Shown: positions 28,707-46,600 of the stretch, piece by piece
How positions within the stretch are numbered: the first letter of the stretch is position 1
Layout: each line of letters opens with the position of its first letter
Assembly (NCBI GenBank): GCA_003223325.1
Contig: QHYS01000116.1
Location: 1-58,335, forward strand
Length of the DNA stretch: 58,335 nucleotides
Direction of reading: 5' to 3'
Source of the DNA: Acidobacteriota bacterium
GTDB lineage: Bacteria > Acidobacteriota > Terriglobia > Acidiferrales > UBA7541
The notes under the pieces: generated by a model
Database searches by the model: none
Seen by the model: the letters and a program-made list of their open reading frames with translations, nothing else
Told to the model about the DNA's origin: nothing
Position numbers and translations under genes: made by a program

Positions 28707-30332
28707 CTATCGCCGAATCTGTTGGCCAGGTCTGGGAAACTCCGTGATCAAGAACTTCCCGTCCGCCTCACGTTCAAGCGCCGGCGCATACAGGCCGATC
28801 AGTTCGCGCCGCCACCAAAGCCCCTGCTGCTTTTCCCTGCGGTCGCTGAACCAGTACTGCCAAACCACCGCCCGCATTTGCATGGGAGGTGCACTCGGAA
28901 ATGGGTCGCCGGCGAATAGCGCGAGTACAGAGGGCGAGCCCGTCATGAGCCTCTCTTCGGCAGAGATCACGAACCGATTCTGTTGCCAGTTGTCGAGGGA
29001 GGCGAACCAGAGATTCCAATCGAACCGTGGCTGGTAGGGGGCGAACATCCCCGGCGCCTCGTGCGGATCCTGTGGCTTATAACGAAAACGGTAAGGCGTC
29101 CATGTCTTGCGGTCGTTCGAGCCTTGAAATTCAATTTCGTAACGGCCCCTCGTCATAACCGCAAACAGTCCGTATTGATTTGCGATGCGAAATGGCTCCA
29201 GCACCGACACCGGCGAGGTGGGAATCGGGAACTGCGGAACGACCATCCATACGAGCTTGGCCGCAATAACAAAAAAAACCCACCCCTGAAAAAATGCTGC
29301 CGCCCATAAACCGATAGAAGAAACCACCCTCCGCGCAGCCACCCATCCGCCTTGGCCCGTACTTTGATCTGCAGCACTCGACTGGGCCGCGGACAGATCA
29401 GCAGGAACCTCCGCTGGCTCGGCCAGACGGCGCCGCAGGAACGTGGCCAGATATTTGTCGTCTAGAAGCAGGATTCCCAGCGCCAGAACAAGGTAATTCA
29501 GGAAGGCATAGTTGCTTGTGAGGATAATTCCGATCTGTACGGGCGTCACCATCCAAAAGAGTACGAGGCGAAATCGTCGTGGCAGCAACGCCATCCAAAC
29601 CAGCACAAGCTCCAGCGCGAGCGTGAAGCCGGCCGTTCCTACGTGAAACCAATGCGGCAAATGATGCGCATACCAAGCAATCCAAGTGGGTAGCGGCCCG
29701 TTTTGATAGTACTCATCCATCGCTGTCAGGTTGCGCCACTCGGGATCGCCGCCGGCGATTTTGGCCACGCCGGATTCAAAATAGATCGTGAACCAGACCA
29801 CCAGCAGCAGAAATAAGCTTGTGCGCGAGGCCGGCTGGTGCTCGCCCCACCGCGGCCGGAATCCCGGCGGTGCAAGAAACAAACTGATGAATCCGGCGCT
29901 CAGCAACATGCCATCGGATTGATAGGACGAAAAGGTCTGTAAAGCGCTGATGAAGGAAAGATAGGCGACCAGGCACACGAAAATCGTCCCACGCGGCCAA
30001 AAATTCAGAACCAACAACACCGAGGCGATCAGCCCTAGGCTGGCGAGTAGCAGCAGCGAACGCGAATCACTTTTCAGCCACAGCAGCGTGGGCACATACC
30101 AAAATCGCCATGCCCCTGCCACCTGCCGAATCGCTTGTAGATATTCTTGCGCGGGAAGGAGGCCGTCTGGGCCAATCAATCCGCGTACTTGTCGCAGGAG
30201 CGAATAGAAGGCGGAGAAGAAAATCAACCCCAATGCGCGCAAGAAAAGCCAGCGTGCCGCCAGCCGGTGCGGCGATCGCCTTGGGTCGGAAGCAAATAGC
30301 CACTCAAAAATGCCTAGGGGGGAAAGCGGCAT
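28707..30332 (-). CDS. Lipase maturation factor-like membrane protein
   Basis: An integral membrane protein of 541 residues in the lipase maturation factor (LMF1-like) family. Several helices are evident, for example LLLLASLGLIASVLLVLNF, LFLLLVVWFTIYFESGVAKI and FLNYLVLALGILLLDD. Conserved segments are FSSYQSDGMLL, ESGVAKIAGGDPEW and PYRFRYKPQDPHEAPG. The eukaryotic relatives aid folding of secreted lipases; the bacterial role is unknown. I chose the ATG at 30332, at the family-typical beginning (GIFEWLFASDPRRS). A TPR-protein gene precedes it on the same strand. Confidence 0.85.
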   Translation of the reverse strand: MPLSPLGIFEWLFASDPRRSPHRLAARWLFLRALGLIFFSAFYSLLRQVRGLIGPDGLLPAQEYLQAIRQVAGAWRFWYVPTLLWLKSDSRSLLLLASLGLIASVLLVLNFWPRGTIFVCLVAYLSFISALQTFSSYQSDGMLLSAGFISLFLAPPGFRPRWGEHQPASRTSLFLLLVVWFTIYFESGVAKIAGGDPEWRNLTAMDEYYQNGPLPTWIAWYAHHLPHWFHVGTAGFTLALELVLVWMALLPRRFRLVLFWMVTPVQIGIILTSNYAFLNYLVLALGILLLDDKYLATFLRRRLAEPAEVPADLSAAQSSAADQSTGQGGWVAARRVVSSIGLWAAAFFQGWVFFVIAAKLVWMVVPQFPIPTSPVSVLEPFRIANQYGLFAVMTRGRYEIEFQGSNDRKTWTPYRFRYKPQDPHEAPGMFAPYQPRFDWNLWFASLDNWQQNRFVISAEERLMTGSPSVLALFAGDPFPSAPPMQMRAVVWQYWFSDRREKQQGLWWRRELIGLYAPALEREADGKFLITEFPRPGQQIRR

Positions 30333-30411
30333 GCTGCCGCCATTATATCTGTAGCGCCGAGGCGCCAATATTTAGGCGGAAGGGATCATGAGATCAGAAT
30401 GAGGAGAAGAA

Positions 30412-31133: not shown

Positions 31134-31181
31134 TTGACACTGGCCCAGAAGAGAGTGTTCAATGGTCCAATCATTGGACCA
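31134..31181 (+). promoter_or_regulatory. Promoter and palindromic FadR-type operator
   Basis: TTGACA (31134-31139) is followed after 18 bases by TTCAAT (31158-31163), a plausible promoter. Overlapping its downstream end is TGGTCCAA-TCA-TTGGACCA (31163-31181), a perfect inverted repeat of the TGGTC/GACCA class bound by FadR/PdhR-type GntR regulators. The regulator gene begins 19 bases later, so autoregulation and control of the following oxidoreductase operon are likely. Confidence 0.7.
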
Positions 31182-31199
31182 GAACAAAACCGTGCAGGC

Positions 31200-31907
31200 A
31201 TGGCGCTAGCCAAACCCGAATTTGAAGCCGTCCGTAGGACGAAGGTCTATGAGCAGGCTGCTCAGCAACTGCAGCGGATGATCCGGGACGGCCTGATTAA
31301 ACCCGGCGAGAAATTACCGCCCGAGCGCGAACTGGCGGAAATGTTGCAAGTCAGCCGCGGCTCTCTGCGCGATGCGATCCGTACACTTGAGCTCATGGGC
31401 CTGGTTGAGCCGCGCCAGGGCGAGGGCACGGTCATTTGTGACCCTTCGGCCAAATCCTTGATTAATCCGCTCGCTACCGTGCTTTTCCGCCAGCGCGAAC
31501 TCATCGGCGATCTTCTTGAGTTTCGGCGCATGATTGAACCAACTCTCGCCGGCCGTGCCGCCGAGAATGCCACTGACGAAGAATTGGCCTACATGGAAGA
31601 CATCCTCCGTCGCCAAAAAGACAAGGTAAATCAGGGCCAGTTGGCCATCGAAGAAGATTCAGAATTCCACTACGCGATAGCGCAAGCTGCCAGAAACAGC
31701 GTGGTCTTGAAGGTTGTGGATGCCTTTATGGACCTGTTGCGCGAGACGCGCGAACGCTCGCTGCAGTTGGAAGGTCGCCTGCAAAAGTCATTCGTGGGTC
31801 ATCGTCGAATCCTGGACGCGATTCGCAAGCATGATGTACGGGCGGCGGGAAAAGCCATGCGCCAGCATATCGATGAGGTTGAAGGCATCGTTTTAGACCA
31901 CATGTAA
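31200..31907 (+). CDS. FadR-type (GntR/FCD) transcriptional regulator
   Basis: A 235-residue repressor-type protein. The N-terminal winged helix is seen in KVYEQAAQQLQRMIRDGLI, PPERELAEMLQVSRGSLRDA and GLVEPRQGEGT. The C-terminal FCD ligand domain contains the metal-binding pattern with Asp in IEEDSEFHYAIAQAA and His in VGHRRILDAI and MRQHIDEVEG; FCD proteins of this kind bind carboxylic acids with Zn or Ni. It lies 17 bases before the oxidoreductase operon, which it probably controls in response to oxalate or a related acid. Start chosen at ATG 31200. Confidence 0.93.
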   Translation: MALAKPEFEAVRRTKVYEQAAQQLQRMIRDGLIKPGEKLPPERELAEMLQVSRGSLRDAIRTLELMGLVEPRQGEGTVICDPSAKSLINPLATVLFRQRELIGDLLEFRRMIEPTLAGRAAENATDEELAYMEDILRRQKDKVNQGQLAIEEDSEFHYAIAQAARNSVVLKVVDAFMDLLRETRERSLQLEGRLQKSFVGHRRILDAIRKHDVRAAGKAMRQHIDEVEGIVLDHM

Positions 31908-31924
31908 TCGCGAGGGAGGTATCG

Positions 31925-33097
31925 ATGGGCCGTTTGTTCGCAGTCGAAATCGTTTATCGCGGGATCTTTCAGAAGACCCTGGCCAAGCACATTAGCCGCG
32001 CCATCGTTTTGGCCGCACACCGGGAAGGCAAACCGGGCATCTCGTTTGGACGCTACGGGGACAGCCCGGAGCGCAACGGAATCCCTGCGAAAGCCTTCGC
32101 CATCGTCGCCACCGACGACATCACCCTCGAAGAGGGGATGGCGAAATACGAGCCGAAAGAAGTCGACATCACCATCAACCTGGACGATACCATGTGCAAG
32201 GGAGTGGAGTCTTGGGCGTGGTACGGTTTGCAGCCCATCAACCGCCTCCTCAAGGCCAACGGCACCCTCATCGTCACCTCACGCGAAGAGCCCGAAAAAT
32301 TGATCGCGATGTGCCATCGCAAGGAGGCACCTTATAAACTTGCCATTGTTAAGGGTATCCCTAGCTTCTCCGGGCTGTGGGTTTTTAAGGATGACCACAC
32401 CGATGTGCGGGTGCTTGGCGCTGTCGCACGTGTTTTGCCGGAACTATTTTCCATCGAATCTTTGAAGCAAATGATCCTGGACGACGGGGAAAACCCTCTC
32501 AAAGCGACGTCCGCCCAGCGTTCCTACGAGCGACTTACCACCGTGACTGTCAAGCCCAATCAAGGCAACCCTGAAAAGCCCTACGAGTTCGAGCTGTTGA
32601 AGTGGACCGAGATGCGCGACGGCATCACCATTCCCGCCATAACTCCGGGCCATGCCATGAAGGATCCCGTCACCGGGCAGACCGGCGGATTCCAGCCCGA
32701 GCGCAACGCCACGTTCAAGAAGTTCTCCACTCGCACCATGCGGCCCGTGGTTAATTTCGACACCTGCATCAAGTGCACCCTCTGTTGGCTGCAGTGCCCG
32801 GACTCCTGTTTCGACGTCACGCCAGAGGGCCTCTACGATGCGAACATGGTCTCCTGCTGCGGCTGTGGCGTATGCGAGGCGGTCTGCCCCGTGCCCAACT
32901 GCGTCACCATGGTCAACGAGATCGGCTTCAGTGATAATGCCGGCCAGTGGGAAATGTGGCGCAAAGACAAAGAAGGCTATGGCACCTGGCTGAAAGACAA
33001 GATCGAGAGCCACCCTGTTCGTTCGCATGGTTTCCGATATCGTGGTCAATATGAAGAGCAGGTCCCCGAGGCGCTGGCAGCCGCCGAGGGAGACTGA
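31925..33097 (+). CDS. 2-oxoacid:ferredoxin oxidoreductase, fused gamma-delta subunit
   Basis: A 390-residue fusion. Residues 1 to about 190 form the gamma domain (VEIVYRGIFQKTLAKHISRA, FGRYGDSPERNGIPAKAF, VDITINLDD). Residues about 240-390 form a ferredoxin-like delta domain with two 4Fe-4S motifs, CIKCTLCWLQCPDSC and CCGCGVCEAVCPVPNC, which pass electrons to ferredoxin. A gamma-delta fusion is a known feature of oxalate oxidoreductase of Moorella thermoacetica. GGGAGG precedes the ATG. It is the first gene of the three-subunit operon. Confidence 0.9.
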   Translation: MGRLFAVEIVYRGIFQKTLAKHISRAIVLAAHREGKPGISFGRYGDSPERNGIPAKAFAIVATDDITLEEGMAKYEPKEVDITINLDDTMCKGVESWAWYGLQPINRLLKANGTLIVTSREEPEKLIAMCHRKEAPYKLAIVKGIPSFSGLWVFKDDHTDVRVLGAVARVLPELFSIESLKQMILDDGENPLKATSAQRSYERLTTVTVKPNQGNPEKPYEFELLKWTEMRDGITIPAITPGHAMKDPVTGQTGGFQPERNATFKKFSTRTMRPVVNFDTCIKCTLCWLQCPDSCFDVTPEGLYDANMVSCCGCGVCEAVCPVPNCVTMVNEIGFSDNAGQWEMWRKDKEGYGTWLKDKIESHPVRSHGFRYRGQYEEQVPEALAAAEGD

Positions 33098-33121
33098 GCT
33101 CCGTCTTAGGGGGGAACTTTC

Positions 33122-34348
33122 ATGACGCCGACAGCAGTAGCAGAAAGCACTAAGGGAACCGAACAAACTGCCCTGATCACCGGCAGCGAGGCCATTGCCG
33201 TCGCCTGCAAATTGGCCGACGTGGACGTGATCACGGGATATCCGATTCGCCCGTACGACACGGTGATTCAGTACATCGCCCAGCTGATCGCCGACGGAGA
33301 AATGGATTGCGAGTACATCGTGGCCGAAGGCGAACACTCGCAGTTCGAAATCGTTAAGCACGCTTCCACCGTCGGCGCTCGCGTGTTCTGCGGCAGCAGC
33401 GGCGTAGGCTGGATGTACGCCTTCGAATGCCTAACCGTCACGCCCGCTCTCCGCGTGCCCATGGTCGTCATGGTCGGCAATCGAGCGCTCGACGATCCCG
33501 GCGCCTTTGGCGTCGAGCACAACGATGCGCTTGCCGTACGCGACTTAGGCTGGCAGCTCGTGTGGGTCGATAGTGCGCAGGAGGCCCTGGACACGGCTCT
33601 CATCGCCTATCGCGTCGCGGAAGATCGGCGCATCTTTCTTCCCTGCGCCATTAGTTGTGACGGCGCCTTCCTCACGCATTCCCAGGCGCATGTAAAGATT
33701 CCGCCGCAAGACCAAGTGAACCAGTTCCTTCCGCGCTACGATCGCGGCGATTTGCTGCTGCATCCTGATAACCCCATCTCCGTGGCGCCGCAAGCCAACG
33801 AGGACTGGCTGATGGAGATTCGCCGCCAGACCGCTGCCGCCATGGATCGCTCGATGGGCGTGATTCGCGAAGCCTATAAGGATTACGAGAAGATCATCGG
33901 CCGAAGCTATGGCAATCCCTTCTTCGAAGAATACATGACCGACGATGCCGATATCGTGCTCGTAGGCATGGGTACCCTCTCAACACCCGTCAAAGTGGCG
34001 ATCCGCAAGATGCGTCAGGAGGGTAAGAAGGTCGGCCTCGTGCGCGTTCGCTGGTTCCGACCTTTTGCCGCTGAGGAGTTGGCCAAGTCCCTATCGCGGT
34101 TCAAGGGCATTGGCGTAATCGATCGCGACTTCTCGTTGGGCTCGCCGTATGCAAGCGGCGTCCTGACCACGGAAGTTCGCACCGCCCTCTACCCTGCAGC
34201 CAAGCACCCGCCCATAATCGGTTTTATTTGCGGGCTGGGTGGACGTGAAGTCACCGTTCCCGATGTCGAGAAGATGTCCGATATAACTTTTGCCGCTGCG
34301 GCGGGTAAAGCGCAGCCGGCCACGCAGTGGATTGGTGTCCGCGAGTAA
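33122..34348 (+). CDS. 2-oxoacid:ferredoxin oxidoreductase alpha subunit, oxalate-type motif
   Basis: A 408-residue alpha subunit (pyrimidine-binding domain of the thiamin diphosphate enzyme). Where pyruvate enzymes have YPITP, this has GYPIRPYDTV (Arg43), the change associated with oxalate binding in Moorella oxalate oxidoreductase. A second matching pair is Arg121 and Asp124 in NRALDDPGAFG. Other family blocks are EGEHSQFEIVKHAS and RVFCGSSGVGWMYAFE. The predicted reaction is oxalate + CoA-independent cleavage to two CO2 with two reduced ferredoxins. The assignment rests on motif recall, not on a search. Confidence 0.82.
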   Translation: MTPTAVAESTKGTEQTALITGSEAIAVACKLADVDVITGYPIRPYDTVIQYIAQLIADGEMDCEYIVAEGEHSQFEIVKHASTVGARVFCGSSGVGWMYAFECLTVTPALRVPMVVMVGNRALDDPGAFGVEHNDALAVRDLGWQLVWVDSAQEALDTALIAYRVAEDRRIFLPCAISCDGAFLTHSQAHVKIPPQDQVNQFLPRYDRGDLLLHPDNPISVAPQANEDWLMEIRRQTAAAMDRSMGVIREAYKDYEKIIGRSYGNPFFEEYMTDDADIVLVGMGTLSTPVKVAIRKMRQEGKKVGLVRVRWFRPFAAEELAKSLSRFKGIGVIDRDFSLGSPYASGVLTTEVRTALYPAAKHPPIIGFICGLGGREVTVPDVEKMSDITFAAAAGKAQPATQWIGVRE

Positions 34349-34402
34349 AACATTTCTTTGCATCGCCGCATACGCTAAATAGCGGCGAGGAGGTTAAAAG
34401 CG

Positions 34403-35410
34403 ATGGCGACGATCGATTATCCACTTCCCAAGCTCGAACCATTCAAGGGACAAAAGAAGATTCCGCTCGAGGAGTTCTTCACCTCGGGCCACCGCACCTG
34501 CCAGGGCTGCGAATCTGCGCTGGTGATGAAGATGATGGCCAAGGCTGCCGGCCCGCGCACGATCGTGCTCGGCAGCACGGGCTGTATGTACGTGGCTAAC
34601 ACCACCTACTACAGCACCTCCTGGGTTATCCCATGGATGCATACCCAGTTGGGGAGCAGCGGCTCGGCCGCGCTTGGCACGGCGGCCGGCCTGAAAGCGC
34701 TCATGCGTAAGGGCAAGATGAAGAAAGAGCCCATCAACGTCATCGCCTTCTGCGGCGATGGTGGCGGCGCGGATATGGGCCTCTCCGCCATCTCTGCAAC
34801 GCTCACACATCCCGACTACAACCTGCTCATCTTGATGTATGACAACGAATCCTACGCCAATACTGACATCCAGCTTTCCGGTAGTACCCCTTACGGCGCC
34901 AATACCACCTTCAGCCCGCCGGGCAAGGTAAAGCGCATCCTACATCATCGCTGGAAGAAGAATATGGCCGGCATGCTCGCGGCAGGGCACCCCGAGTGCA
35001 AGTACATCGCTACCGTTGACATGTCTTACGGCTTGCAAGCCATGAACTGCGTCCGCAAGGCGCTGTCTATCGGCGGCCCCACCTTCATCCATTCTCTTGA
35101 TCCCTGCCCCAAGGGCTGGGACTACGACCCCATGATCTCACACGATTTAGGCGAACTGGCGGTCACCACCGGCGTCTGGCCACTTTATGAGATCGAAAAT
35201 GGCTTGCTCAAGCTTTACGGCAAGACGAAGGAAATCGCCGAGGGCCGCTACAAGCGGCTTCCGGTGCGCGACTACCTGCTTAGGCAGGGACGTTTCGCCC
35301 ACTTTAAGGATGAAGATTTCGACTACTTCCAGAGCAAGATCGATCAGATGTGGGAGAAGTGGCTATATCCCGGCATCATTCCCTTCCGTGCGGAGCTCGA
35401 TAAGGAATAA
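34403..35410 (+). CDS. 2-oxoacid:ferredoxin oxidoreductase beta subunit
   Basis: A 335-residue subunit that binds thiamin diphosphate and an Fe-S cluster. The cofactor motif is CGDGGGADMGLSAISATL with LMYDNESYANTDIQLSGSTP. The cluster-binding cysteines are in HRTCQGCESAL, GSTGCMYVANTTY and the later LDPCPKGW. GAGGAGG stands ahead of the ATG. It ends the operon and is followed by a strong terminator. Together with the alpha and gamma-delta genes it should form an alpha-beta-gamma trimer that oxidises a short 2-oxoacid, probably oxalate. Confidence 0.93.
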   Translation: MATIDYPLPKLEPFKGQKKIPLEEFFTSGHRTCQGCESALVMKMMAKAAGPRTIVLGSTGCMYVANTTYYSTSWVIPWMHTQLGSSGSAALGTAAGLKALMRKGKMKKEPINVIAFCGDGGGADMGLSAISATLTHPDYNLLILMYDNESYANTDIQLSGSTPYGANTTFSPPGKVKRILHHRWKKNMAGMLAAGHPECKYIATVDMSYGLQAMNCVRKALSIGGPTFIHSLDPCPKGWDYDPMISHDLGELAVTTGVWPLYEIENGLLKLYGKTKEIAEGRYKRLPVRDYLLRQGRFAHFKDEDFDYFQSKIDQMWEKWLYPGIIPFRAELDKE

Positions 35411-35435
35411 CGCCGGCCCGACGCTACCCAGAACC

Positions 35436-35466
35436 AAAAGGCCGCTCGATCGCGAGCGGCCTTTTT
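35436..35466 (+). terminator. Rho-independent terminator of the oxidoreductase operon
   Basis: AAAAGGCCGCTCG (35436-35448) pairs perfectly with CGAGCGGCCTTTT (35453-35465) around an ATCG loop, followed by a T-rich stretch (CTTTTTATTT). It lies 26 bases after the beta-subunit stop. The A-rich left arm means it may also work for the convergent MFS gene. Confidence 0.92.
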
Positions 35467-35505
35467 ATTTGCAAGCAGCGATTCTCGGGCGCGCCGCCCA
35501 GGAAC

Positions 35506-36797
35506 TCAATCTGCCGGCGCCAATGCGGTGGCTTCTCGCCTTCGCACTTCGCGCAGCCGCAGAGGACGCACAATGCCAATCATCAAGAACGCTGCGACGA
35601 CGTCAGCTAAAGCCGCAACCACAAGCGTCGTGAACCAGCTGCCCGTCATGGATGCGATCTTGCTACCGAGAGGCACAAAAAGCGCCGCGCACCCCTTGGC
35701 TGTGTACAAAAGCGCATAGTTCGTGCTCGCGTATTTTTTGCCGAAGTGATCCGAGGTGAGCGCCGGAAAAATGCTGTAAATATCGCCCCACACCAAAAAG
35801 GTAAGCGCCGCCACGATCACAAAACTCACTGGATTGCTTCCGTATCTGGCCAGCGCCAATACCGCAAATCCCTCAACCAGAAAGGTCACAAAGAGCGTGG
35901 ATTCGCGCCCGATCACATCGGATATCCAACCAAAAAGGGGCCTGCCGATGCCGTTCATCAGGTTATTGACGGAAAGCGCGAAAGTAAGCGCCGGGATCGT
36001 AAACCCGAGCAGCGTGACGGGAACCTTATCGATTTTGAAGCCTGTGGCAATCGGCGCAAGTTGTGCGGTCACCATTAGCCCGCTGGCACCAACCAGCACA
36101 AACGCCGCATACACACCTGGGTTTGCAGCAGATGTGGATTGGATTGCCTCGCCACGGTTCCCTTTGGCGGCTTCTTGAGCGCAACCGCCGCTACCAGCAC
36201 CACAATTCCCTGAATCAACGCGAACTTAAAAAATGTCGCCTGATATCCGCTTGAGCTCAGCGAACGGGTCAGGGGCACGACTGTGAGCGCCGCGCCCGCG
36301 CCAAATCCTGCCGCCGTCAGACCGGCGGCCAGGCCGCGTCGCTTTTCGAACCATTTCACCGCATTCCCGATACATGTCCCATACACCAGGCCCGTCCCGA
36401 TGCCGCCGATTGCCGCTCCGACATAGAGCGCGTTAAGCGTTGCGGCTCGCGAGTAAATAATCCAGCAGAATGCAATCAGCAATGCCCCCACCATAACCAG
36501 TGGACGCGGACCGAAGCGGTCGGCCAAATAGGCCTCAAATGGCACAAGCCAGGTTTCGAACAGGACAAACAAAGTGAACGCCCACTGAATTGCCACCTTG
36601 CCCCAGTGATAATGCGCGTCAATGGGGTTGACAAAAATGGTCCAACCATACTGGAGGTTGGCCACCATAGCCATGCACACGACTCCAAAAATAAGCTGTA
36701 CCCAAGGACGGGCACGAGAACCCGAAGAGACTAAAGCTCTACTCGTTTCGCTACCGGCGCTGGAATAGGCAGGCTTTGCGGCTGAGGCTTCCGACAT
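35506..36797 (-). pseudogene. MFS transporter of the oxalate/formate antiporter family, frameshifted
   Basis: Two adjoining frames form one MFS protein of about 425 residues. The first (36797 to about 36110) carries helices 1-6: YGWTIFVNPI, FTLFVLFETWLVPFEAYLAD, GIGTGLVYGTCIGNAVKWF and GLAAGLTAAGFGAGAA. The second (about 36120 to 35506) carries helices 7-12: MYAAFVLVGASGLMVTAQLA, FTIPALTFALSVNNLMNGIG and GRPLFGWISDVIGRE. A one-base shift at about 36108-36124 separates them. GNAVKWFEKRRGLAAG is typical of the OFA family (OxlT). It fits oxalate import for the facing operon. If the shift is real, the carrier is dead; it may be a sequencing error. Confidence 0.8.
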
Positions 36798-37163: not shown

Positions 37164-37868
37164 TTGAAGCGTATCCTCATCATTGAAGATGACCGGGATA
37201 TTGTGGAGTTGGTGCGCTACAACCTTGCGAACGAAGGCTTCGAGGTCACCGCCTCGGCTGAGGGCTCAGCAGGTTTGGCGCTGTTGCGCAAGAGCCCGCC
37301 CGATCTTGTGATTCTCGACCTCATGCTGCCCAAAATGCCTGGCCTAGAGGTCTGCAAAGAGATTCGGCGTGACCCGACACTGAATCGCTTGCCTATCCTG
37401 ATGCTCACGGCGCGCGGAGAGGAGGCCGATCGCGTCATTGGGCTCGAAATGGGCGCGGATGATTACGTCACCAAGCCCTTCAGCCCTCGTGAATTGGCGG
37501 CGCGGGTCAAAGCTCTGCTCCGACGCGCTGAACCCGCAGGCGAAGTCGAGCGGGCCATCGAAGTCGGCCGGCTTTCGATCGATCCTTCTTCCTATCGCGT
37601 CACGCGAGCGGGCAAACTGCTCACGCTCAGCACCCTCGAATTTCGTCTGATTTACTATCTGGCGGCCCGCCCCAACCGCGTCTTTACGCGCGATCAGCTG
37701 CTCGATGCTGTATGGGGAACCGACCGGTTTGTTACACCTCGCAGCGTAGATGTGTACATTCGGCGGTTGCGAGAAAAAATCGAGGCGGACCCGGAAAATC
37801 CGGTTCATTTGAAAACCGTCCGCGGCGCTGGATACTTGTTCGAATCGGCGGTGGGCCGGCTGAGTTAG
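37164..37868 (+). CDS. phoB: Phosphate regulon response regulator
   Basis: An OmpR/PhoB-type response regulator of 234 residues. The receiver domain has the acidic pocket (IIEDD), phosphoacceptor Asp in LVILDLMLPKMPG, Thr in MLTARG and Lys in VTKPFSP. The C-terminal winged helix has YLAARPNRVFTRDQLLDAVW and VDVYIRRLREKIE. Phosphorylated PhoB activates phosphate-starvation genes through Pho boxes; three good ones lie downstream. The start is TTG with GGAGG seven bases ahead. It is followed by phoR at 34 bases. Confidence 0.93.
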   Translation: MKRILIIEDDRDIVELVRYNLANEGFEVTASAEGSAGLALLRKSPPDLVILDLMLPKMPGLEVCKEIRRDPTLNRLPILMLTARGEEADRVIGLEMGADDYVTKPFSPRELAARVKALLRRAEPAGEVERAIEVGRLSIDPSSYRVTRAGKLLTLSTLEFRLIYYLAARPNRVFTRDQLLDAVWGTDRFVTPRSVDVYIRRLREKIEADPENPVHLKTVRGAGYLFESAVGRLS

Positions 37869-37901
37869 TCTAACGGGTTTCTCGTACAGGAGTTGCTGCG
37901 C

Positions 37902-39671
37902 TTGAATTTCTTTTGGCGATCAAATCTTGCCATTCTGGCCCTGGTCCTTGTCGTTCTGGCCGCGGGAGACCTGTACTCCTGGCGCGCAGTCGGAAGGCAG
38001 GCGCAGCAGGCGGGCTTCGAAGAACTCGCTGCCTTAGCGCGCCTCGTTCGCTCGCATCCATCCGATCTCGATGATTCAACGGCGCTTCACCATTGGGCTG
38101 CAGAGATCGCCACAATCGGCGCACAAGCAGCCCTTGTTCGAAGTGACGGCCAGATATTGGCCGACTCTGTCCCTGCCTCCAACGTCAGCGTCAGGGACCC
38201 CGAAATCCAGCAAGCTCTCTCAAACGGCGAAGGCCGCTCGATACGCCACAGCAATACGCTCGACCGCGACGTTCTCTACTACGCCGTTTCCTATTCTCCA
38301 ACTCCGTCGCCATCTTCGCCGGCGTCCCTGGGAACGTCTAGAGCACTCGTTCTCCGTCTAGCCCTCCCCCTTGCTGAGGTGGACCAGCAATTCTCCGCCA
38401 TGCGCCGTCCTGTCTGGACTGCATTTCTGATTTTGTTCGCTTCCGCCATCGCGATTTCGTTATTAGACCTCCGCAGCACGTCACGGCGAATCCGCAGCCT
38501 CAAAGAATTTGGCGCTCGCATGGTCTTAGGCGATTTTCGGCCTGTGCACGCCGCCCCCGCTGGCGACAGCCTCGACGAACTCGCCCGTGCGCTCAATGAA
38601 ACTGCCGCCCGGCTGAACGCCAGCATCAGCATGTTGACCGATGAGCGCAATCGCTCCTCCGCTATCCTGGGCAGCATGATCGAGGGGGTCGCGGTGATCA
38701 GTGGAGACGAACGCATTATCTTCTCCAATCGCGCATTTTCCCGAATTCTCGGTTTGGACGACGTTCGGGACATTGAAGGCCATCCCTTGCTCGAAGTGAC
38801 CCGCCAATCAGACCTGCTAGCGGCCATCAAAATGGCACTGAACGGTCAGGAACAGGTGAGCAGCGAGATCGTCGTGGGCACGGTCCGGCCCCGAAGCTTC
38901 GCCGTAACGGCCGCGCCAGTGCAGGCCTCGGCCCATAAGGGAGCCGTTCTCGTGCTGCATGAAATCACCGACCTGCGCCGCCTGGAACGTGTCCGTCAGG
39001 ATTTCGTGGCCAACGTATCGCACGAGTTCCGCACGCCCTTGACCGCCATTCAAGGTTTTGCCGAAACACTTCTGGCCGGGGCCCTGGAGGACCCGGGCAA
39101 TCGCCGCCGCTTCGTGGAGATCATCCGCGAGCACGCCACGCGCCTCGCCCGTTTGACCGAAGACCTGCTGAAACTCTCCCGCATCGAAGCAGGGCAGTTG
39201 AAGCTCGAATTTCGCCCAGTTTCTGTGACTGAGTTGATCGAATCCTGCGTCGAAACGGCCCAATTGAAAGCCGTTCCCAGACGCCTTGCACTCCATGTGC
39301 GCCTGCCGAACGAATTACCCACTGTGCGCGGAGACGCCAATAGCCTTCAAGAGGTGTTACAAAATCTCCTCGATAACGCACTGCAATATACGCCCGCCGG
39401 TGGGAAAATCGAGGTTTCTGCCGTGTGCTCGGATGGCCGTGTCGTCGTCACCGTTGCCGACACCGGTATCGGAATCCCGCAAGTGGAGCAAGAGCGAATC
39501 TTTGAACGGTTCTACCGGGTCGATGCCGCGCGTTCCCGCGAGGCCGGCGGTACCGGCCTGGGCCTCTCCATCGCCCGTCACATTGTGGCGGCGCATGGCG
39601 GACGCCTTTGGGTGGAGAGTGCCGTTGGAGAAGGGTCGCGCTTTCACTTCAGCATCCCCGTTACTCCTTGA
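37902..39671 (+). CDS. phoR: Phosphate regulon sensor kinase PhoR
   Basis: A membrane histidine kinase of about 589 residues. Two transmembrane helices (NLAILALVLVVLAAGDLYSW and WTAFLILFASAIAISLL) flank a periplasmic loop. HAMP and PAS segments follow. The dimerisation domain has the phospho-His in FVANVSHEFRTPLTAIQGF, and the ATPase domain has LQNLLDNALQYTPAG, DTGIGIP and GGTGLGLSIARHIV. It senses phosphate state, probably through PstB/PhoU. TTG at 37902 has AGGAG nine bases before it, so I prefer it to the TTG at 37893. Confidence 0.93.
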   Translation: MNFFWRSNLAILALVLVVLAAGDLYSWRAVGRQAQQAGFEELAALARLVRSHPSDLDDSTALHHWAAEIATIGAQAALVRSDGQILADSVPASNVSVRDPEIQQALSNGEGRSIRHSNTLDRDVLYYAVSYSPTPSPSSPASLGTSRALVLRLALPLAEVDQQFSAMRRPVWTAFLILFASAIAISLLDLRSTSRRIRSLKEFGARMVLGDFRPVHAAPAGDSLDELARALNETAARLNASISMLTDERNRSSAILGSMIEGVAVISGDERIIFSNRAFSRILGLDDVRDIEGHPLLEVTRQSDLLAAIKMALNGQEQVSSEIVVGTVRPRSFAVTAAPVQASAHKGAVLVLHEITDLRRLERVRQDFVANVSHEFRTPLTAIQGFAETLLAGALEDPGNRRRFVEIIREHATRLARLTEDLLKLSRIEAGQLKLEFRPVSVTELIESCVETAQLKAVPRRLALHVRLPNELPTVRGDANSLQEVLQNLLDNALQYTPAGGKIEVSAVCSDGRVVVTVADTGIGIPQVEQERIFERFYRVDAARSREAGGTGLGLSIARHIVAAHGGRLWVESAVGEGSRFHFSIPVTP

Positions 39672-39696
39672 GTCACTTTTCGCAGCATTCATCCTC

Positions 39697-39714
39697 CTGT
39701 CACTGGTCTGTAAC
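39697..39714 (+). promoter_or_regulatory. Pho box upstream of the first phoU
   Basis: CTGTCAC (39697-39703) and CTGTAAC (39708-39714) form two 7-base direct repeats with a four-base spacer, an 11-base period as in the E. coli Pho box. It lies between phoR and the following phoU remnant and indicates PhoB control of a promoter there. Confidence 0.65.
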
Positions 39715-39791
39715 TTACATTGCCGAGTATTGTGGGCGCGCTCACTGACCTCTGCCTGTCGGCGTTGCCCGGCGCCAAGAAGGAGGAGCGA

Positions 39792-40513
39792 ATGGCGACA
39801 CTCGCAACATCAACGCCTAGCATCCGTCTGGAAGTTCTCACGAACTATCTGGTTTCCATGGCCCGAAGCGTCGAAACGAACGTCGACCGTGCTCTGACAG
39901 CCCTGCTGCAGACTGGCTCCTCCGAACCTCGACAATCGCCCGGTGAAATATTCCTCTTGGAGCCTCGCGTTAACGAAATGGAGATCATTATTGACGATCA
40001 TGCAATCGGCATGCTCCGGGGAGGAAACCTATCATCAGCGGAAATCGCCAGGTGGTAGCCACCCTTAAAATCACCAACGACCTCGAACGCATGGGGGACT
40101 TGGCCGTAAATCTCGGTGAAAGGATCATCTCTCTCACAGAAATGCGCCCCGTGGTCGCTCCGCCGGAGCTCGAGCCGATGGTCGTAGCGGTGAGGGCCAT
40201 GATCAAGAAGAGTCTAGGCGCACTGATTTTGAAGAACGTGGTCTGGGCTCGCGAAGTGCTGGAGAGTGATGACCTGGTGGACCGCTACCGTGACGACATC
40301 TTTGAACGGCTCCTGGACGGCATGCGGCACCGTCCTGGCGACATTGCCCCCAATCTGCAACTCGTCCTCGCCAGCCGCTATTTGGAACGGTTAGCGGATC
40401 ACGCGACGAACATTGCCGAAGACATCATCTTTTGGGTACGCGGCCTCGATGTACGCCATGGTCGCGTTGCGAATCTCAACCCCCAGGCTTCTCCGTTTAC
40501 CGAGAATTCATAG
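39792..40513 (+). pseudogene. phoU: PhoU-like protein, frameshifted
   Basis: Two frames make one PhoU protein of about 240 residues. The first begins MATLATSTPSIRLEV after AGGAGGAGCGA and reaches NEMEIIIDDHAIGML. The second begins near 40052 with VVATLKITNDLERMGDLAVN, the metal-binding E/DxxxD helix, and ends with the second copy LERLADHATNIAEDIIFWVR. Between them the frame shifts by one base at about 40025-40052. An intact phoU exists at 46658, so loss of this copy may be tolerated. Alternatively the shift is an assembly error. Confidence 0.78.
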
Positions 40514-40612
40514 TTTCGTGATGCTGACCGCAGTCCGTTACGCTCCGGCTGCTTGCGATACTCGGCCCTGCCCGAGTCCAGCAGGGTCTTACCCTCAAAC
40601 CAAATACCCCTC

Positions 40613-40647
40613 GGGCCAGCGCTCCCCTGGTGCTGGCCCTTAGTTTT
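40613..40647 (+). terminator. Probable terminator after the first phoU
   Basis: GGGCCAGC (40613-40620) pairs with GCTGGCCC (40632-40639) around an 11-base loop and is followed by TTAGTTTT. It lies 100 bases after the phoU stop and 26 bases before the Pho box of the porin gene, so it separates two transcription units. Confidence 0.6.
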
Positions 40648-40672
40648 CCACAGGACCCGCCCACCAGGCCTT

Positions 40673-40701
40673 GTAACATAGAATTAACATTTCTGTTACA
40701 A
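40673..40701 (+). promoter_or_regulatory. Triple Pho box upstream of the porin
   Basis: GTAACAT (40673-40679), TTAACAT (40684-40690) and GTTACAA (40695-40701) repeat with an exact 11-base period and A/T-rich four-base spacers. The unit resembles the repeats before pstS (CGTAACA) and phoU1 (CTGTAAC). It predicts PhoB-dependent expression of the porin. Confidence 0.7.
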
Positions 40702-40813
40702 AAGGATTACCTACTCCGCATAGCTTTGCTAGGGGTTAATTTGCGCATGCGGGGCGTTCTCCGCAATCGGAGCCTTCACGTTAGCTTCCAGCTCAAATTT
40801 GAGGGAGGAACGA

Positions 40814-42616
40814 ATGCGATTATCCTTGGGGTGTATCCTGGCTCTCGCCCTTAGCGTATTGCCTGCATTAGCAGCAGCGGGCACTGGGGCAAATAATAGT
40901 TCTGCGGACGCAAAATCCACCGCCGCGTCCGAGACCAAAACATCACCTGAGACCACCGCCAAATCGGAGGCCAGTGCTGAGCCGGCAAAATCCGGCTTAG
41001 ATTTGGAAGTTGAGGAGCTCCGCGAGCAATTGCAAGCACAAAGCGAGCTCATTAGACAGCAGCAAGAAAGGGTGCAAGCGCTTGAAGAGCAGTTGAAGGT
41101 GAGCACCACCACCCTGCGAGAAGGGTTATCCTCGTCTCCCGCCGCCAAGCCCGCAAACGCTGCGGCCGGCCTTGCTCCAGCTGCCGCCGTCAGCGCAACG
41201 GCGGCGTCGGCAACGGTAGCCGCTGCGCCGCCTGCGGCCCCGCCGGCTGCTCCTCAGAGCACTAACGCGCCTCCCGAGTCGCCCCTCCAACTCCGTGTTG
41301 GCACGGCGTACATCACGCCCGTAGGCTTCGTGGATTTCACCGGCGTTTGGCGCAACCACACTGGCGGTAGTGGCATTGGAACGAATTTCGCCGGCATACC
41401 TTACGGGCCTGTATTTCAGAATAACCTCAGCGAATTCCGCTTCAGTATGCAGAACTCCCGCATCGGCTTCCGCGTTGACGCCCTGGTTAAAGGCGCTCAC
41501 GTGATTGGCTATATGGAGTCGGACTTCCTGGGGAACAACCCAGGAAACGTTGCCGTAAGCAGCAATAGCAACACGCTGCGTTCCCGGTTGTATTGGGTAG
41601 ACGTCCGCAAGAGCGCTTGGGAGGTACTAGGCGGCCAAACCTGGAGTTTGATCACTCCCGGCCGCACCGCCATTTCGCCTCTGCCAGGCGACCTCTTCTA
41701 TTCGCAAGATATAGACGTGAACTACCAGGCGGGGTTGGTCTGGGGACGTATACCCGAACTTCGACTTGTGTACCACGCTTCGCCTAAAGCCGCGCTGGCA
41801 GTTGCCCTCGACGCCCCCGAGCAGTACGTAGGAGGCTCGGCAGGGTTAGGTTCAAGTAGTAACCCACCAATTACGCTTCCAGCGGCCTTTGCCAGCAACG
41901 CGGCCTATTCTCTCAGTGCGACAAGTTCTGAATTCAACAACGGTGCGACTACTCTAAACGTACCCAACGTTGCTCCCGACGTGATCGTCAAACTCGCGTT
42001 CGATCCGGCCAGCAGATTTCACTTTGAGGTGGGTGGCCTAGAGAGACAGTTCAAGCTCTGGAATCCCGCCAGCACGACAAAGCTCTCCGCAACCGGTGCC
42101 GGCGGTTTCATCAACCTCGGTGTGGGACTATTTAAGGGCTTCCGCCTCCTAACCAATAACTTCTATAGCGAGGGAGGCGGCCGTTACATTTTCGGGCAAG
42201 TGCCGGACTTCGTCGTACGCACCGACGGCAGCCCATCCCCGATTCATGCCGGCTCAACCGTTAGCGGCTTTGAATTCACCCACGGCAATGCATCCTTCTA
42301 CGGTTATTACGGTGCCATCTACGTTCTCCAGGACGTCATCACCGATACCACCGGCAAACTCGTGGGCTACGGATGGGTCGGGGCAGGAGCATCGTCGTCT
42401 CAGAACCGGACCATTCAGGAAGGCACGTTGGGCTTTAACCAAACGCTGTGGAAAGACGCGCGATATGGCGCGTTGAACTTAATGGGGCAGTATTCCTATC
42501 TCACGCGGAGCCCATGGTCGGTAGCTTCCGGCGCGCCACGGGATGCTCTCTTGAACATGGTCTTCCTCAACCTGCGCTACACGCTGCCGGGTGGTGCTCC
42601 TAACCTGGAGCGGTAG
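40814..42616 (+). CDS. Outer-membrane porin, phosphate-regulated
   Basis: A 600-residue outer-membrane protein. It has a signal peptide (LGCILALALSVLPALAAAG), a short coiled coil (LEVEELREQLQAQSELIRQQ) that likely binds peptidoglycan or trimerises, an Ala/Pro-rich linker and a beta-barrel from about residue 150 (LQLRVGTAYITPVGFVDFTG, SRIGFRVDALVKG, SRLYWVDVRKSAWEVLGGQT). It ends with alternating strand residues (NMVFLNLRYTLPG). The Pho box upstream suggests a role in phosphate or anion uptake. GAGGGAGGAA precedes the ATG at 40814. Confidence 0.85.
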   Translation: MRLSLGCILALALSVLPALAAAGTGANNSSADAKSTAASETKTSPETTAKSEASAEPAKSGLDLEVEELREQLQAQSELIRQQQERVQALEEQLKVSTTTLREGLSSSPAAKPANAAAGLAPAAAVSATAASATVAAAPPAAPPAAPQSTNAPPESPLQLRVGTAYITPVGFVDFTGVWRNHTGGSGIGTNFAGIPYGPVFQNNLSEFRFSMQNSRIGFRVDALVKGAHVIGYMESDFLGNNPGNVAVSSNSNTLRSRLYWVDVRKSAWEVLGGQTWSLITPGRTAISPLPGDLFYSQDIDVNYQAGLVWGRIPELRLVYHASPKAALAVALDAPEQYVGGSAGLGSSSNPPITLPAAFASNAAYSLSATSSEFNNGATTLNVPNVAPDVIVKLAFDPASRFHFEVGGLERQFKLWNPASTTKLSATGAGGFINLGVGLFKGFRLLTNNFYSEGGGRYIFGQVPDFVVRTDGSPSPIHAGSTVSGFEFTHGNASFYGYYGAIYVLQDVITDTTGKLVGYGWVGAGASSSQNRTIQEGTLGFNQTLWKDARYGALNLMGQYSYLTRSPWSVASGAPRDALLNMVFLNLRYTLPGGAPNLER

Positions 42617-42792
42617 GCTTTTTTCGACCAAGGCGAGCGAGGATGGCCCCTGCGCTGTAAGCCTTGTGTGTCTGAGGATTGCGTCCAGCGGCGGCTCCAA
42701 CGGTGTCACGCAGAATTTACGCACAATGGAAGGTGTATCGATTGTACTCGGTTATTTCTTATGTTTCAAACCAAAGGCCAAATTCACAGACG

Positions 42793-42821
42793 CGTAACAG
42801 CGGCGTAACAATCCCGTAACA
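42793..42821 (+). promoter_or_regulatory. Triple Pho box upstream of pstS
   Basis: CGTAACA occurs three times without change at 42793-42799, 42804-42810 and 42815-42821, giving two perfect 11-base steps. This is the clearest Pho box in the window. It lies 41 bases before the pstS start and predicts strong induction of the pst operon by PhoB. Confidence 0.85.
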
Positions 42822-42862
42822 GAGAGTGAGAGAAAACACCCCAGAAAGGACCGGATACGAGC

Positions 42863-43870
42863 ATGCGTAAGGTTCTCGGTTTCGCCCTATTGGCGGTTTT
42901 GACTGCAACTCCCACCTGGGCTCAAAATATTAACGCGGCTGGTGCTACGTTTCCTTACCCGATCTATTCCAAATGGTTCGACGAGTACCATAAGGCGCAT
43001 CCCAGCGTGCAGATCAATTACCAGTCCATCGGATCGGGCGGCGGAATCCGCCAGCTCTTGGATAAGACCGTCGATTTTGGCGCTTCCGATGGCCCCATGG
43101 CGGACGAGCAGCTTCAACAGGCAGGCTTCAAAATCCTGCACTTCCCCACTGTCTTGGGCGGAGCCGTACCCAGCTACAATATCCCCGGCGTCAGCGCTGA
43201 GTTGAAGTTTACGCCTGAGGCGCTAGCTGCAATTTTTTTGGGCAAGGCCAGCAAATGGAATGATCCTGCCATTTCCGGCCCGAACCCGGGCGTAAAACTT
43301 CCCGCCGAAGACATCGTGGTGGTACACCGTTCCGATGGCAGCGGCACCACCTATATCTGGACAGACTATCTCTCGAAAGTCAGCGAAGAATGGCGCACCA
43401 AGGTGGGCAAAAATACTTCCGTGAACTGGCCGGTTGGCTTGGGCGGTAAGGGCAACGAGGGAGTTGCCGGTCTGATCAAACAGACGCCGTACTCCATCGG
43501 TTATGTTGAGTTGATTTATGCCGTTCAGAATAACCTTCCCTACGGTTCCCTGAAGAACGCATCCGGCGAATTCGTCAAGGCGAGTTTGGCTAGTGTCTCC
43601 GCTGCCGCTGCGGGCGCGGCCAAGTCCATGCCCGACGATTTTCGCGTCTCTATCACCGACCCGCCCGGAAAAGAAGCCTATCCGATCTCTAGCTTTACTT
43701 GGCTGCTCATTCCGGGACAAATTCAGGATGCCGGGAAGAGGTCTGCTATAAAAGATTTTCTGGCATGGATGCTAACCTCAGGGCAGCAATTCTGTGAACC
43801 GTTGGCTTATGCCAAACTGCCCAAGGAAGTCGCGGCCAAGGAGCAAAAGGCTGTTGCCCTGATTCAGTAG
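42863..43870 (+). CDS. pstS: Phosphate ABC transporter, substrate-binding protein
   Basis: A 335-residue periplasmic phosphate-binding protein with signal peptide (VLGFALLAVLTATPTWAQ). Phosphate-binding loops are visible: AGATFPYPIYSKWF, SIGSGGGIRQLLDKTVDFGA, SDGPMAD and VVVHRSDGSGTTYIWTDYLS. Family length is normal. It is the first gene of pstSCAB-phoU, under the triple Pho box, and delivers phosphate to PstC/PstA. AGAAAGGA precedes the ATG. Confidence 0.97.
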   Translation: MRKVLGFALLAVLTATPTWAQNINAAGATFPYPIYSKWFDEYHKAHPSVQINYQSIGSGGGIRQLLDKTVDFGASDGPMADEQLQQAGFKILHFPTVLGGAVPSYNIPGVSAELKFTPEALAAIFLGKASKWNDPAISGPNPGVKLPAEDIVVVHRSDGSGTTYIWTDYLSKVSEEWRTKVGKNTSVNWPVGLGGKGNEGVAGLIKQTPYSIGYVELIYAVQNNLPYGSLKNASGEFVKASLASVSAAAAGAAKSMPDDFRVSITDPPGKEAYPISSFTWLLIPGQIQDAGKRSAIKDFLAWMLTSGQQFCEPLAYAKLPKEVAAKEQKAVALIQ

Positions 43871-43884
43871 CGCCAGCCCATGAA

Positions 43885-44871
43885 ATGGCAACCGCGCCCA
43901 CCACAGCCGAAGCCGCGGGCTTCCCCTGGGGCCCGCGCGCGCTCATCCGCCGTGTGCGCAGCGGTGACGAACTTGCCCGACTGACCACGCTCGTCTTTGC
44001 GCTCGTGGTGGTCTTGCTCGCGGTCATGCTGGTCGAACAGCTTTGGACGAATTCCGCCGAGGCCAGACATCGTTTTGGACTGGCCTTCCTGTGGAGTAGC
44101 ACCTGGGATCCAGTATTTAACCAGTTTGGGGCGTTGCCCTTCGTTTATGGCACGCTCGTTACTTCCGCGCTGGGGCTATTGATCGCTGTTCCCCTCGGGC
44201 TCGGTGCGGCAATCTTTCTGGCGGAATTGGCTCCCCGCAGTCTTTCTGATAATCTCACGTTCCTAATAGATCTGCTCGCCGCCGTGCCCAGCGTGATCTA
44301 TGGTCTGTTGGGAGTCTTTATTCTTGTGCCGCTCATGCGCACAGAAATTCAGCCCGCGCTGAAGCGCGCGCTGGGATTTACGGTTCTTTTTCAGGGTCCC
44401 TTGTACGGCATCGGGTCGTTGACGGCCGGCCTGGTGCTCGCCGTCATGATTGTCCCTTTCATTATTTCCGTCTCCCGGGAGGTCTTGCTGGCTGTGCCCG
44501 GTGACCAGCGCGAAGCGGCATTGGCTCTAGGCGCGACGCGCTGGGAAGCCACCTGGAAAGCCGTCGTCCCCTACGCTCGTACGGGCATCATGGGTTCTAT
44601 TTTCCTGGCCCTCGCGCGCGCCCTCGGCGAAACGATGGCTGTAACCATGGTCATCGGGAACAATCCGCGCATTTCCGCATCGCTTTTCGCCCCGGGTTAT
44701 TCCATCGCCGCAGTGCTTGCAAATGAATTCAGTGAGGCCACCGGCAATCTTTACCTCAGTGCGCTCATCGAACTGGGTTTGGTGCTCTTCCTGCTGACCT
44801 TTGTGCTCAATGGTTTGGCGCGCTTGCTGATTCTATTGACCACCAGTCGGGGAAGCGTGGTGCAAACATGA
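43885..44871 (+). CDS. pstC: Phosphate ABC transporter permease PstC
   Basis: An inner-membrane permease of 328 residues with about six helices (for example LTTLVFALVVVLLAVMLVEQ and GTLVTSALGLLIAVPLGLGA). The ABC-contact (EAA) loop is DQREAALALGATRWEATWK. It pairs with PstA to form the phosphate channel. The start follows pstS by 14 bases, and the end overlaps the pstA start by four bases, indicating coupled translation. Confidence 0.96.
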   Translation: MATAPTTAEAAGFPWGPRALIRRVRSGDELARLTTLVFALVVVLLAVMLVEQLWTNSAEARHRFGLAFLWSSTWDPVFNQFGALPFVYGTLVTSALGLLIAVPLGLGAAIFLAELAPRSLSDNLTFLIDLLAAVPSVIYGLLGVFILVPLMRTEIQPALKRALGFTVLFQGPLYGIGSLTAGLVLAVMIVPFIISVSREVLLAVPGDQREAALALGATRWEATWKAVVPYARTGIMGSIFLALARALGETMAVTMVIGNNPRISASLFAPGYSIAAVLANEFSEATGNLYLSALIELGLVLFLLTFVLNGLARLLILLTTSRGSVVQT

Positions 44872-45719
44872 ACCTGCGCATGCTTTGGCGCAAGTCCGTG
44901 AACGTGCTGATGCTTAGTTTGACCGGCCTCTGCGCGCTGGTAGCCATCTCGTTACTCTTTTTTATCCTTGGGTATCTCGCCTATCACGGCGGTAAAGATG
45001 TGAACTGGGATTTTTTCACCAAGCTGCCTAAGCCCGTCGGAGAGACGGGCGGTGGCATGGCCAACGCGATCGTAGGCTCCGGAAAACTTTTGTTGTTGGC
45101 GGCCCTTTTTGGTGTTCCCGTCGGACTGCTGGGCGGGATGTATCTGGCCGAATTTGGCGGCCGTGCCGTCCCTTTTGTTGTTCGTTATACGGCGGATTTG
45201 CTGAACGGCGTGCCTTCGATCGTCATCGGCATCTTTGCTTACGCGGTGGTGGTGATGCCGGTACACCACTTTTCCAGCTTGGCAGGAGGTTTTGCCCTTG
45301 GCGTGATGATGATTCCGATCGTGCTCCGTAGTACAGAGGAATTCTTGCACGCCGTTCCGCGCTCCATGCGCGAAGGCGCCATGGCCCTGGGCGCTAGCAA
45401 ATGGCGCACCATCTCCAGCGTCGTTTTGCCGGCAGCCTCCCGCGGTATCCTCACCGCCGCCTTGCTGGCTCTCGCCCGTGTCGCCGGGGAGACTGCACCC
45501 TTGCTCTTCACCGCCTTCGGCAACCGTTTTTGGAGCCCCGGCTGGAGCCAGCCGATCGCCTCCTTGCCTGTTATGATCTTTACCTACGCCGTCGGACCTT
45601 ACGAAGACTGGCACCGGCAGGCGTGGGCTGCGGGCCTGGTCTTGCTCGGTCTAGTGCTCGTCACCAATATTGTCGTCAGAACCCTACTCTCGCGCGGAAC
45701 TTCGCCACCAAGGTCATAG
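44868..45719 (+). CDS. pstA: Phosphate ABC transporter permease PstA
   Basis: A 283-residue inner-membrane permease. Helices such as [20 protein letters not shown] and [10 protein letters not shown] are visible, and the ABC-contact loop is [19 protein letters not shown]. The segment [16 protein letters not shown] is typical of PstA. It overlaps pstC at its start (ATGA) and is followed at once by pstB. Confidence 0.96.
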
Positions 45720-45721
45720 AT

Positions 45722-46600
45722 ATGACCCAGACTTCAGCCAAACCTGCTTACAATATGACGGAGTCCGCAGAGAGTTCGGCGATGGGAGCCATGGAGACTG
45801 TTCTTAAACCGCCTATGCCCAGTGGTTCACAGACGGTACTCGAGGCGCCCCTACGGATGCAAGTCCGCAACCTCGATTTTTACTACGGCAAGTTGCACGC
45901 CCTGCACTCGGTCAACCTGCAAATCACCGCCAATCGCGTCACTGCACTCATTGGTCCTTCCGGCTGCGGCAAATCTACCCTGATTCGCACTTTTAACCGC
46001 ATGCACGAGACCGTGCGCGGCACACGCCTCGAAGGTGAAATCCTGCTCGATGGCGAAGACGTATTCGCACAAGATGTTACGCGCCTCCGGCGCCGCATCG
46101 GCATGGTCTTTCAGAGACCTAACCCCTTTCCCAAATCAATTTTTGAAAACGTGGCATATGGATTGCGAATCAATGGTCTCCCGGCAGCCCGGCGCGGCCA
46201 TTTATCCGATGCTGTGGAACATAGTCTGCGGCGTGCGGCGCTGTGGGACGAGGTCAATGATCAGTTACACAAATCTGCCTATGCGCTCTCCGGCGGACAG
46301 CAGCAGCGACTGTGCATCGCGCGTGCCCTCGCGGTCGATCCCGAAGTGCTCCTTCTGGACGAACCCTGCTCTGCGCTCGATCCCGTCAATACCGCCAAGA
46401 TCGAGGAGTTGCTGTTCCATTTGAAGCAGAACTGCACCTTGGTCATCGTAACCCACAATATGCAGCAGGCCGCACGCGTCAGCGATGCCACTGCCTTCCT
46501 GCTCAATGGTGAGTTGATCGAGTTCAGGCCAACGCCGCAGCTCTTCACCACTCCATCCGACCCGCGCACCGAAGCTTACATCACCGGCCGTTTCGGATGA
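45722..46600 (+). CDS. pstB: Phosphate ABC transporter ATP-binding protein
   Basis: A 292-residue ABC ATPase. Walker A is GPSGCGKST, the Q-loop is [20 protein letters not shown], the signature is [15 protein letters not shown], Walker B is [12 protein letters not shown], and the switch His is in VTHNMQQAA. It energises phosphate uptake by PstCA. The first 45 residues (before [12 protein letters not shown]) are an extra, poorly conserved extension; a start nearer to MQVRNL would match most homologues better. phoU follows. Confidence 0.96.

Follow-up and report, generated by a model that had tools for sequence, protein, structure and literature searches.

An acidobacterial operon probably devoted to oxalate utilisation and built on a soil-clade oxalate oxidoreductase

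Contig QHYS01000116.1 of an Acidobacteriota draft genome (assembly GCA_003223325.1) was analysed over a stretch of 58,335 nucleotides, here called the window. Between positions 31134 and 36797, the plus strand encodes a regulator with FCD and GntR domains, followed by the gamma-delta, alpha, and beta subunits of a thiamine pyrophosphate (TPP)-dependent oxidoreductase; a carrier gene on the minus strand converges on this set (Table 1). An initial annotation had read the genes as a putative oxalate oxidoreductase (OOR) operon, and an open reading frame (ORF) check found the ORFs it named to be real and correctly placed. The analysis supports that reading, with a qualification: judged by its sequence, the enzyme is a sister-clade variant of OOR and not a member of the Moorella-type equivalog. 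An oxalate-utilisation operon built on this soil-clade OOR is, in our judgement, very likely. The gaps separating regulator, gamma-delta, alpha, and beta are 17, 24, and 54 bases, which fits a single transcript, and all four ORFs and the operator are intact.

Table 1. Features of the operon, and the second candidate oxalate gene of the source genome
Feature	Position	Strand	Remarks
FCD regulator ORF	31134-31907	+	opens at TTG 31134; likelier start ATG 31200
Operator-like palindrome TGGTCCAATCATTGGACCA	31163..31181	.	37 bp 5' of likely regulator start
Fused gamma-delta subunit	31925..33097	+	domain III-like part, 2x[4Fe-4S] ferredoxin domain, ~50-aa C-terminal extension
Alpha subunit	33122..34348	+	TPP-dependent oxidoreductase; YPIRP and RALDDPGAFG motifs
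Beta subunit	34403..35410	+	TPP/Mg-binding
Terminator-like hairpin GGCCGCTCG-ATCG-CGAGCGGCC, then T-run	~35440..35468	.	between beta and converging carrier; read from sequence
OxlT-like OFA-family MFS carrier gene	35506..36797	-	disrupted; converges on operon
OxdC-like bicupin, source genome	G000 C23 6042-7089 (L199, L200)		two frames

For each subunit the best PDB match by sequence is the OOR of Moorella thermoacetica: alpha scores 317.7 bits (versus 232.3 for the best pyruvate:ferredoxin oxidoreductase, PFOR, from Methanosarcina), beta 287.6 bits (versus 200.8 for PFOR), and gamma-delta, matched to the Moorella delta chain, 75.5 versus 39.3 bits. The three OOR models of NCBIfam (NF045790-NF045792) also rank first for the three subunits, in each case under the equivalog cut-off. 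AlphaFold models agree: both alpha (mean pLDDT 81) and gamma-delta (mean pLDDT 78) find their best fold match in a chain of 5c4i, for gamma-delta the Moorella OOR delta chain (E 1e-22). The eight ferredoxin cysteines of gamma-delta are invariant in the alignment, and its C-terminal extension contains a stretch, RSHGFRYRGQY, conserved in most members of the soil clade.

Relatives were taken from named genome contigs and from whole-genome samples of the Acidobacteriota, the phylum of a Rubrobacter-like genome, and the phylum of Sedimentibacter. In an alpha tree (IQ-TREE) from which both motif regions had been deleted, all OORs form one clade (support 100/100), composed of two sister clades, window-type (100/100) and Moorella-type (100/99); the PFORs all lie outside. 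Beta agrees, its tree separating the OORs from the PFORs at 100/99. This is the comparison that the initial annotation had proposed, naming a grouping with pyruvate or branched-chain enzymes as the outcome that would speak against OOR; alpha and beta both join OOR with the PFORs outside, and therefore no such grouping was found.

The active-site motifs lead to the same assignment. YPIRP, in place of YPITP, occupies alpha residues 40-44, and NRALDDPGAFG occupies residues 120-130, where R121 and D124 form the R-x-x-D pattern; both traits had been noted in the initial annotation. Every complete OOR-like alpha carries YPIRP together with R-x-L-D-x-PG-x-FG, except for two one-residue variants, and the combination occurs in no PFOR; PFOR-like alphas have YPITP or a near variant. 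YPIRP was described as unique to Moorella OOR (PMC5020499), the source on which we rely exclusively for residue roles. Residues R121, D124, and F129, equivalents of Moorella Arg109, Asp112, and Phe117, are invariant in the alpha alignment. The loop itself comes in two types: RTLDPPGDFG in Moorella-type enzymes, and NRALDDPGAFG in the window type. Window-type alpha places Asp125 where Moorella has Pro113, and window-type beta carries Asp155 at a position that is Gly in both Moorella-type OOR and PFOR.

The regulator joins a GntR helix-turn-helix (71.5 bits; Pfam cut-off 27) to an FCD domain (107.3 bits; cut-off 24.3) and thus belongs to the FCD subfamily of GntR proteins. Its family is present at 29 loci (39-95% identity), mostly immediately 5' of gamma-delta. 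The palindrome, TGGTCCAA-TCA-TTGGACCA, is perfect, and is the sole site with fewer than three mismatches across the 6.1-Mb genome. Among related regulators, 22 of 42 have TGGTC-N8/9-GACCA within 150 bp upstream, against 0.019 expected (shuffle mean). ATG 31200 is the better start, because the reading from TTG 31134 would contain the palindrome. The initial annotation had named FadR/FCD-type control and a perfect operator; the operator is perfect in the window, and the control type holds across relatives.

Gene order is also conserved: regulator, gamma-delta, alpha, beta, and OxlT-type carrier recur in this order among relatives. Counting genes within 6 kb at window-type loci that have 4.5 kb or more of flank on each side (n = 22, the window included), an OxlT-family carrier is present at 16 and the FCD regulator at 17. 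Moorella-type loci have the carrier in three of six cases, and one Moorella-like locus, L145, has both an OxlT-type carrier and an FCD regulator nearby; at PFOR comparison loci with enough flank, only three in number, neither carrier nor regulator was found (0/3 each). Tct-type (TctA-type) carriers stand instead at a Rokubacterial window-type locus and at two actinobacterial Moorella-type loci. Intact carriers of relatives exceed the TIGR04259 cut-off of 335 bits (L003, 531; L008, 481; L172, 454). The fusion of gamma and delta, counted initially among the Moorella traits, is present here and is not diagnostic: gamma and delta are separate genes at most Moorella-type loci examined, and the fusion was rejected as a marker of OOR.

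The strongest evidence from gene context comes from locus L172, whose host is another acidobacterium in the same class. Its alpha is of the Moorella type (57% identical to Moorella OOR), and its surroundings are those of window-type operons: a regulator 61% identical to that of the window with the same operator type, and a CoA ligase (83%), a PanE-type reductase (73%), and a carrier (76%) resembling theirs. One regulatory and transport setting therefore hosts either type of OOR, which is what a shared function would lead one to expect. An AMP-forming CoA ligase and a PanE-type reductase adjoin the operon at L008, L009, L010, L043 (ligase annotated by cluster), L166, L170, and L172, joined by an aminotransferase gene at L008-L010. 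By homology they resemble an assimilatory route leading from oxalate to glyoxylate, since the PanE2 of Methylobacterium extorquens reduces oxalyl-CoA (PMC8411744). The source genome has no close homologue of the ligase (best match, 31% identity).

Several other genes accompany OOR operons. CDC48-type AAA ATPase genes adjoin the Moorella-type genes at L145 (8283-10505, minus strand) and L172 (11011-13269, minus strand), with ORFs of similar size at the matching place in the Moorella-type operons of L144, L146, L147, L148, and L149. In the Moorella-type operons of L172 (8481-10310, minus strand) and L161 (4649-6520, minus strand), plain delta gives way to a fusion of a GltD-like NAD(P)-binding flavoprotein with an OOR-delta-like ferredoxin domain; L162 has an ORF of similar size at that place. 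This fusion suggests NAD(P) as the acceptor of the L172 and L161 enzymes. Window-type locus L032 has a GltD-like gene immediately upstream. The window operon itself contains no flavoprotein gene, so ferredoxin is the default guess. Hydrogenase-like genes, recognised by eye, lie less than 10 kb from two window-type operons (L019, 3691-6153; L037, 14193-16211).

Oxalate oxidation by the enzyme is a well-supported prediction from phylogeny, motif, and context; the substrate, electron acceptor, and regulatory response in the following scheme are what we infer. Oxalate would be held beside TPP between alpha Arg43 (Moorella Arg31) and Arg121 (Arg109). The TPP ylide would attack one carboxyl carbon, and the adduct would be decarboxylated without coenzyme A. 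Two low-potential electrons could then pass from the cluster of beta to the pair of [4Fe-4S] clusters in gamma-delta and on to ferredoxin or a similar carrier, with the second oxalate carbon released as CO2. Alpha loop 122-131, which corresponds to the switch region in Moorella, may act as a gate, with an acidic pattern of Asp125 and beta Asp155 rather than Moorella Asp116. In the alpha model, the pLDDT of this loop falls below 50, which is compatible with mobility and no proof of it. The FCD regulator would bind the palindrome before its own gene, with relief probably by oxalate or a close metabolite; in relatives with intact genes, the OxlT-family carrier would import oxalate.

Some observations weigh against oxalate oxidation by this operon. 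Those on the enzyme itself are the missed NCBIfam equivalog cut-offs (alpha 376 of 500, beta 329 of 590, and delta 90 of 230 bits) and the replacement of Moorella Asp116, important with Arg31 for the bait-and-switch mechanism (PMC5020499), by Ala in all complete soil-type alphas (Ala128 here). Together with the new Asp125 of the switch loop and with beta Asp155 in place of Gly in soil-type members, they would suit a 2-oxoacid oxidoreductase in which Arg43 and Arg121 hold some other small, charged substrate of C2-C3 size, such as glyoxylate, mesoxalate, or oxamate. We consider such a substrate improbable: the enzyme is sister to OOR at full support; OxlT-family carriers adjoin, with oxalyl-CoA synthetase- and reductase-like genes at some loci; and the Moorella-type OOR of L172 is surrounded by the same regulator, CoA ligase, PanE, and OxlT. 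Far less credible still is an ordinary pyruvate or branched-chain 2-oxoacid oxidoreductase lying beside an unrelated carrier. Membership of the same superfamily and the 356 bits that the PorA model NF040682 gives alpha, near the 376 of the OOR model, are what speak for it. It was rejected on the alpha and beta trees, which leave the PFORs outside the OOR clade, on YPIRP instead of YPITP, on PDB and profile scores (the former clearly favouring OOR), and on the recurrence of the carrier association across loci.

The remaining adverse points concern the source genome. The carrier gene, annotated initially as an OFA/OxlT-type MFS gene facing the operon, keeps its family, seen again across relatives, and its converging position, and is broken here. 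Relative to the intact L003 gene (86% identity), 46 bp are missing at ~36114/36115; the frame is therefore shifted and the gene split into two overlapping minus-strand ORFs, 36797-36075 and 36114-35506, which score 275.6 and 232.7 bits against TIGR04259, each short of the single-ORF cut-off. The notion that the OOR is the sole candidate oxalate enzyme of the genome was discarded, since there is also an OxdC-like bicupin, which exceeds the TIGR03404 cut-off with 326.5 bits and whose gene lies in two frames. This deletion and the two-frame bicupin gene could mean that the operon is decaying in this genome, its enzyme genes intact and its own import lost; such decay, which would be compatible with an oxalate operon, seems unlikely given the intact operon ORFs and operator, and a second OFA-family MFS gene (38% identity) on another contig. 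The deletion may also be an assembly error, since the assembly is a draft in 377 contigs and the genomes nearest to it are metagenome-assembled genomes (MAGs). Finally, two haem-copper oxidase subunit I genes suggest that the host is an aerobe, and enzymes of this class are usually oxygen-sensitive. To our knowledge, OOR has been characterised so far only in oxygen-avoiding bacteria.

The window-type clade comes from bacteria of soil and sediment, among them Acidobacteriota, Rubrobacter, and Rokubacteria. Of the 396 Acidobacteriota genomes sampled, 8 have a window-type alpha (55% identity or more, full length), the source genome included, and G302 adds a fragment; the sample from the Rubrobacter phylum likewise yields 8 out of 396. 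Other window-type alphas lie on contigs titled Rokubacteria, Deltaproteobacteria, Myxococcales, and Gammaproteobacteria, MAG titles that are possibly misnamed. In the sample from the Sedimentibacter phylum, 28 of the 398 genomes have a Moorella-type OOR that exceeds the NCBIfam cut-off, and a few such OORs are also found in Acidobacteriota (L172-L174) and in the Rubrobacter phylum (L161, L162). Examination of two genomes from the Rubrobacter phylum showed OOR alpha to be their sole POR_N protein over the Pfam cut-off; the source genome encodes another two 2-oxoacid oxidoreductases, each of two subunits. Its four TPP_enzyme_N proteins include no recognisable oxalyl-CoA decarboxylase. Two TPP-dependent enzymes have twin-arginine-like N-termini and are possibly exported (L062, 76-2028, minus strand; L063, 121-2028, minus strand); the L062 gene lies within a few kilobases of the OxdC-like gene on the same contig.

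One survey of oxalotrophy genes covered oxc, frc, oxdC, and oxlT (PMC10192776), and OOR was put aside in a large survey of the gut (PMC8062136); our open-access literature search found no paper naming both oxalate oxidoreductase and Acidobacteria. If a second OOR clade does operate in soil Acidobacteriota, Rubrobacter, Rokubacteria, and others, soil oxalate turnover has been undercounted, and the question arises by what means a TPP/iron-sulphur enzyme of low potential functions where the host has respiratory oxidases. Here the oxalate would come from plants and fungi, very probably to be burned to CO2 by a self-contained gene set. More tentatively, and with somewhat more doubt than confidence, we suggest that the soil clade is an oxygen-tolerant OOR with a re-wired gating loop that feeds aerobic respiration: a common, uncounted route of oxalotrophy, free of oxalyl-CoA decarboxylase, in several phyla. 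The altered switch loop occurs naturally in dozens of sequences and would put the Moorella bait-and-switch model directly to the test.

Elsewhere in the window, a homologue of lipase maturation factor (Pfam LMF1 and LMF1_C), here in a bacterium, is encoded at 28707-30368 on the minus strand. At 37164-46600 on the plus strand, a response regulator, a histidine kinase, PhoU-like ORFs, a possible porin, a phosphate-binding-like protein, and an ABC ATPase make up what looks like a phosphate-uptake cluster, probably beside the operon by chance.

Among known systems, the oxalyl-CoA route of Methylobacterium extorquens, with CoA activation and PanE2 reduction to glyoxylate, has counterparts in the CoA ligase and PanE-type genes beside relatives' operons, and none in the window operon. 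OxlT-type antiporters (TIGR04259) are matched over the curated cut-off by the relatives' adjoining carriers; the window copy is the broken one. Four-subunit PFOR (PDB 9bt4, Methanosarcina acetivorans) has superfamily, cofactors, and domain set in common with the window enzyme, but it carries YPITP, lacks R-x-L-D-x-PG-x-FG, shows 33% alpha identity, and falls outside the OOR clade. Moorella thermoacetica OOR (PDB 5c4i, 5exd, 5exe) differs in its clade (alpha identity is only ~42%), in its switch residues (Asp116 to Ala, Pro113 to Asp, and beta Gly to Asp155), in the C-terminal extension of the window gamma-delta, in the CDC48-like ATPase gene, which does not adjoin the window operon, and in the likely aerobes among window-clade hosts. 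Yet the two enzymes have in common the alpha, beta, and gamma-delta architecture and YPIRP, and the window alpha retains the equivalents of Moorella Arg109, Asp112, Pro114, Gly115, and Phe117.

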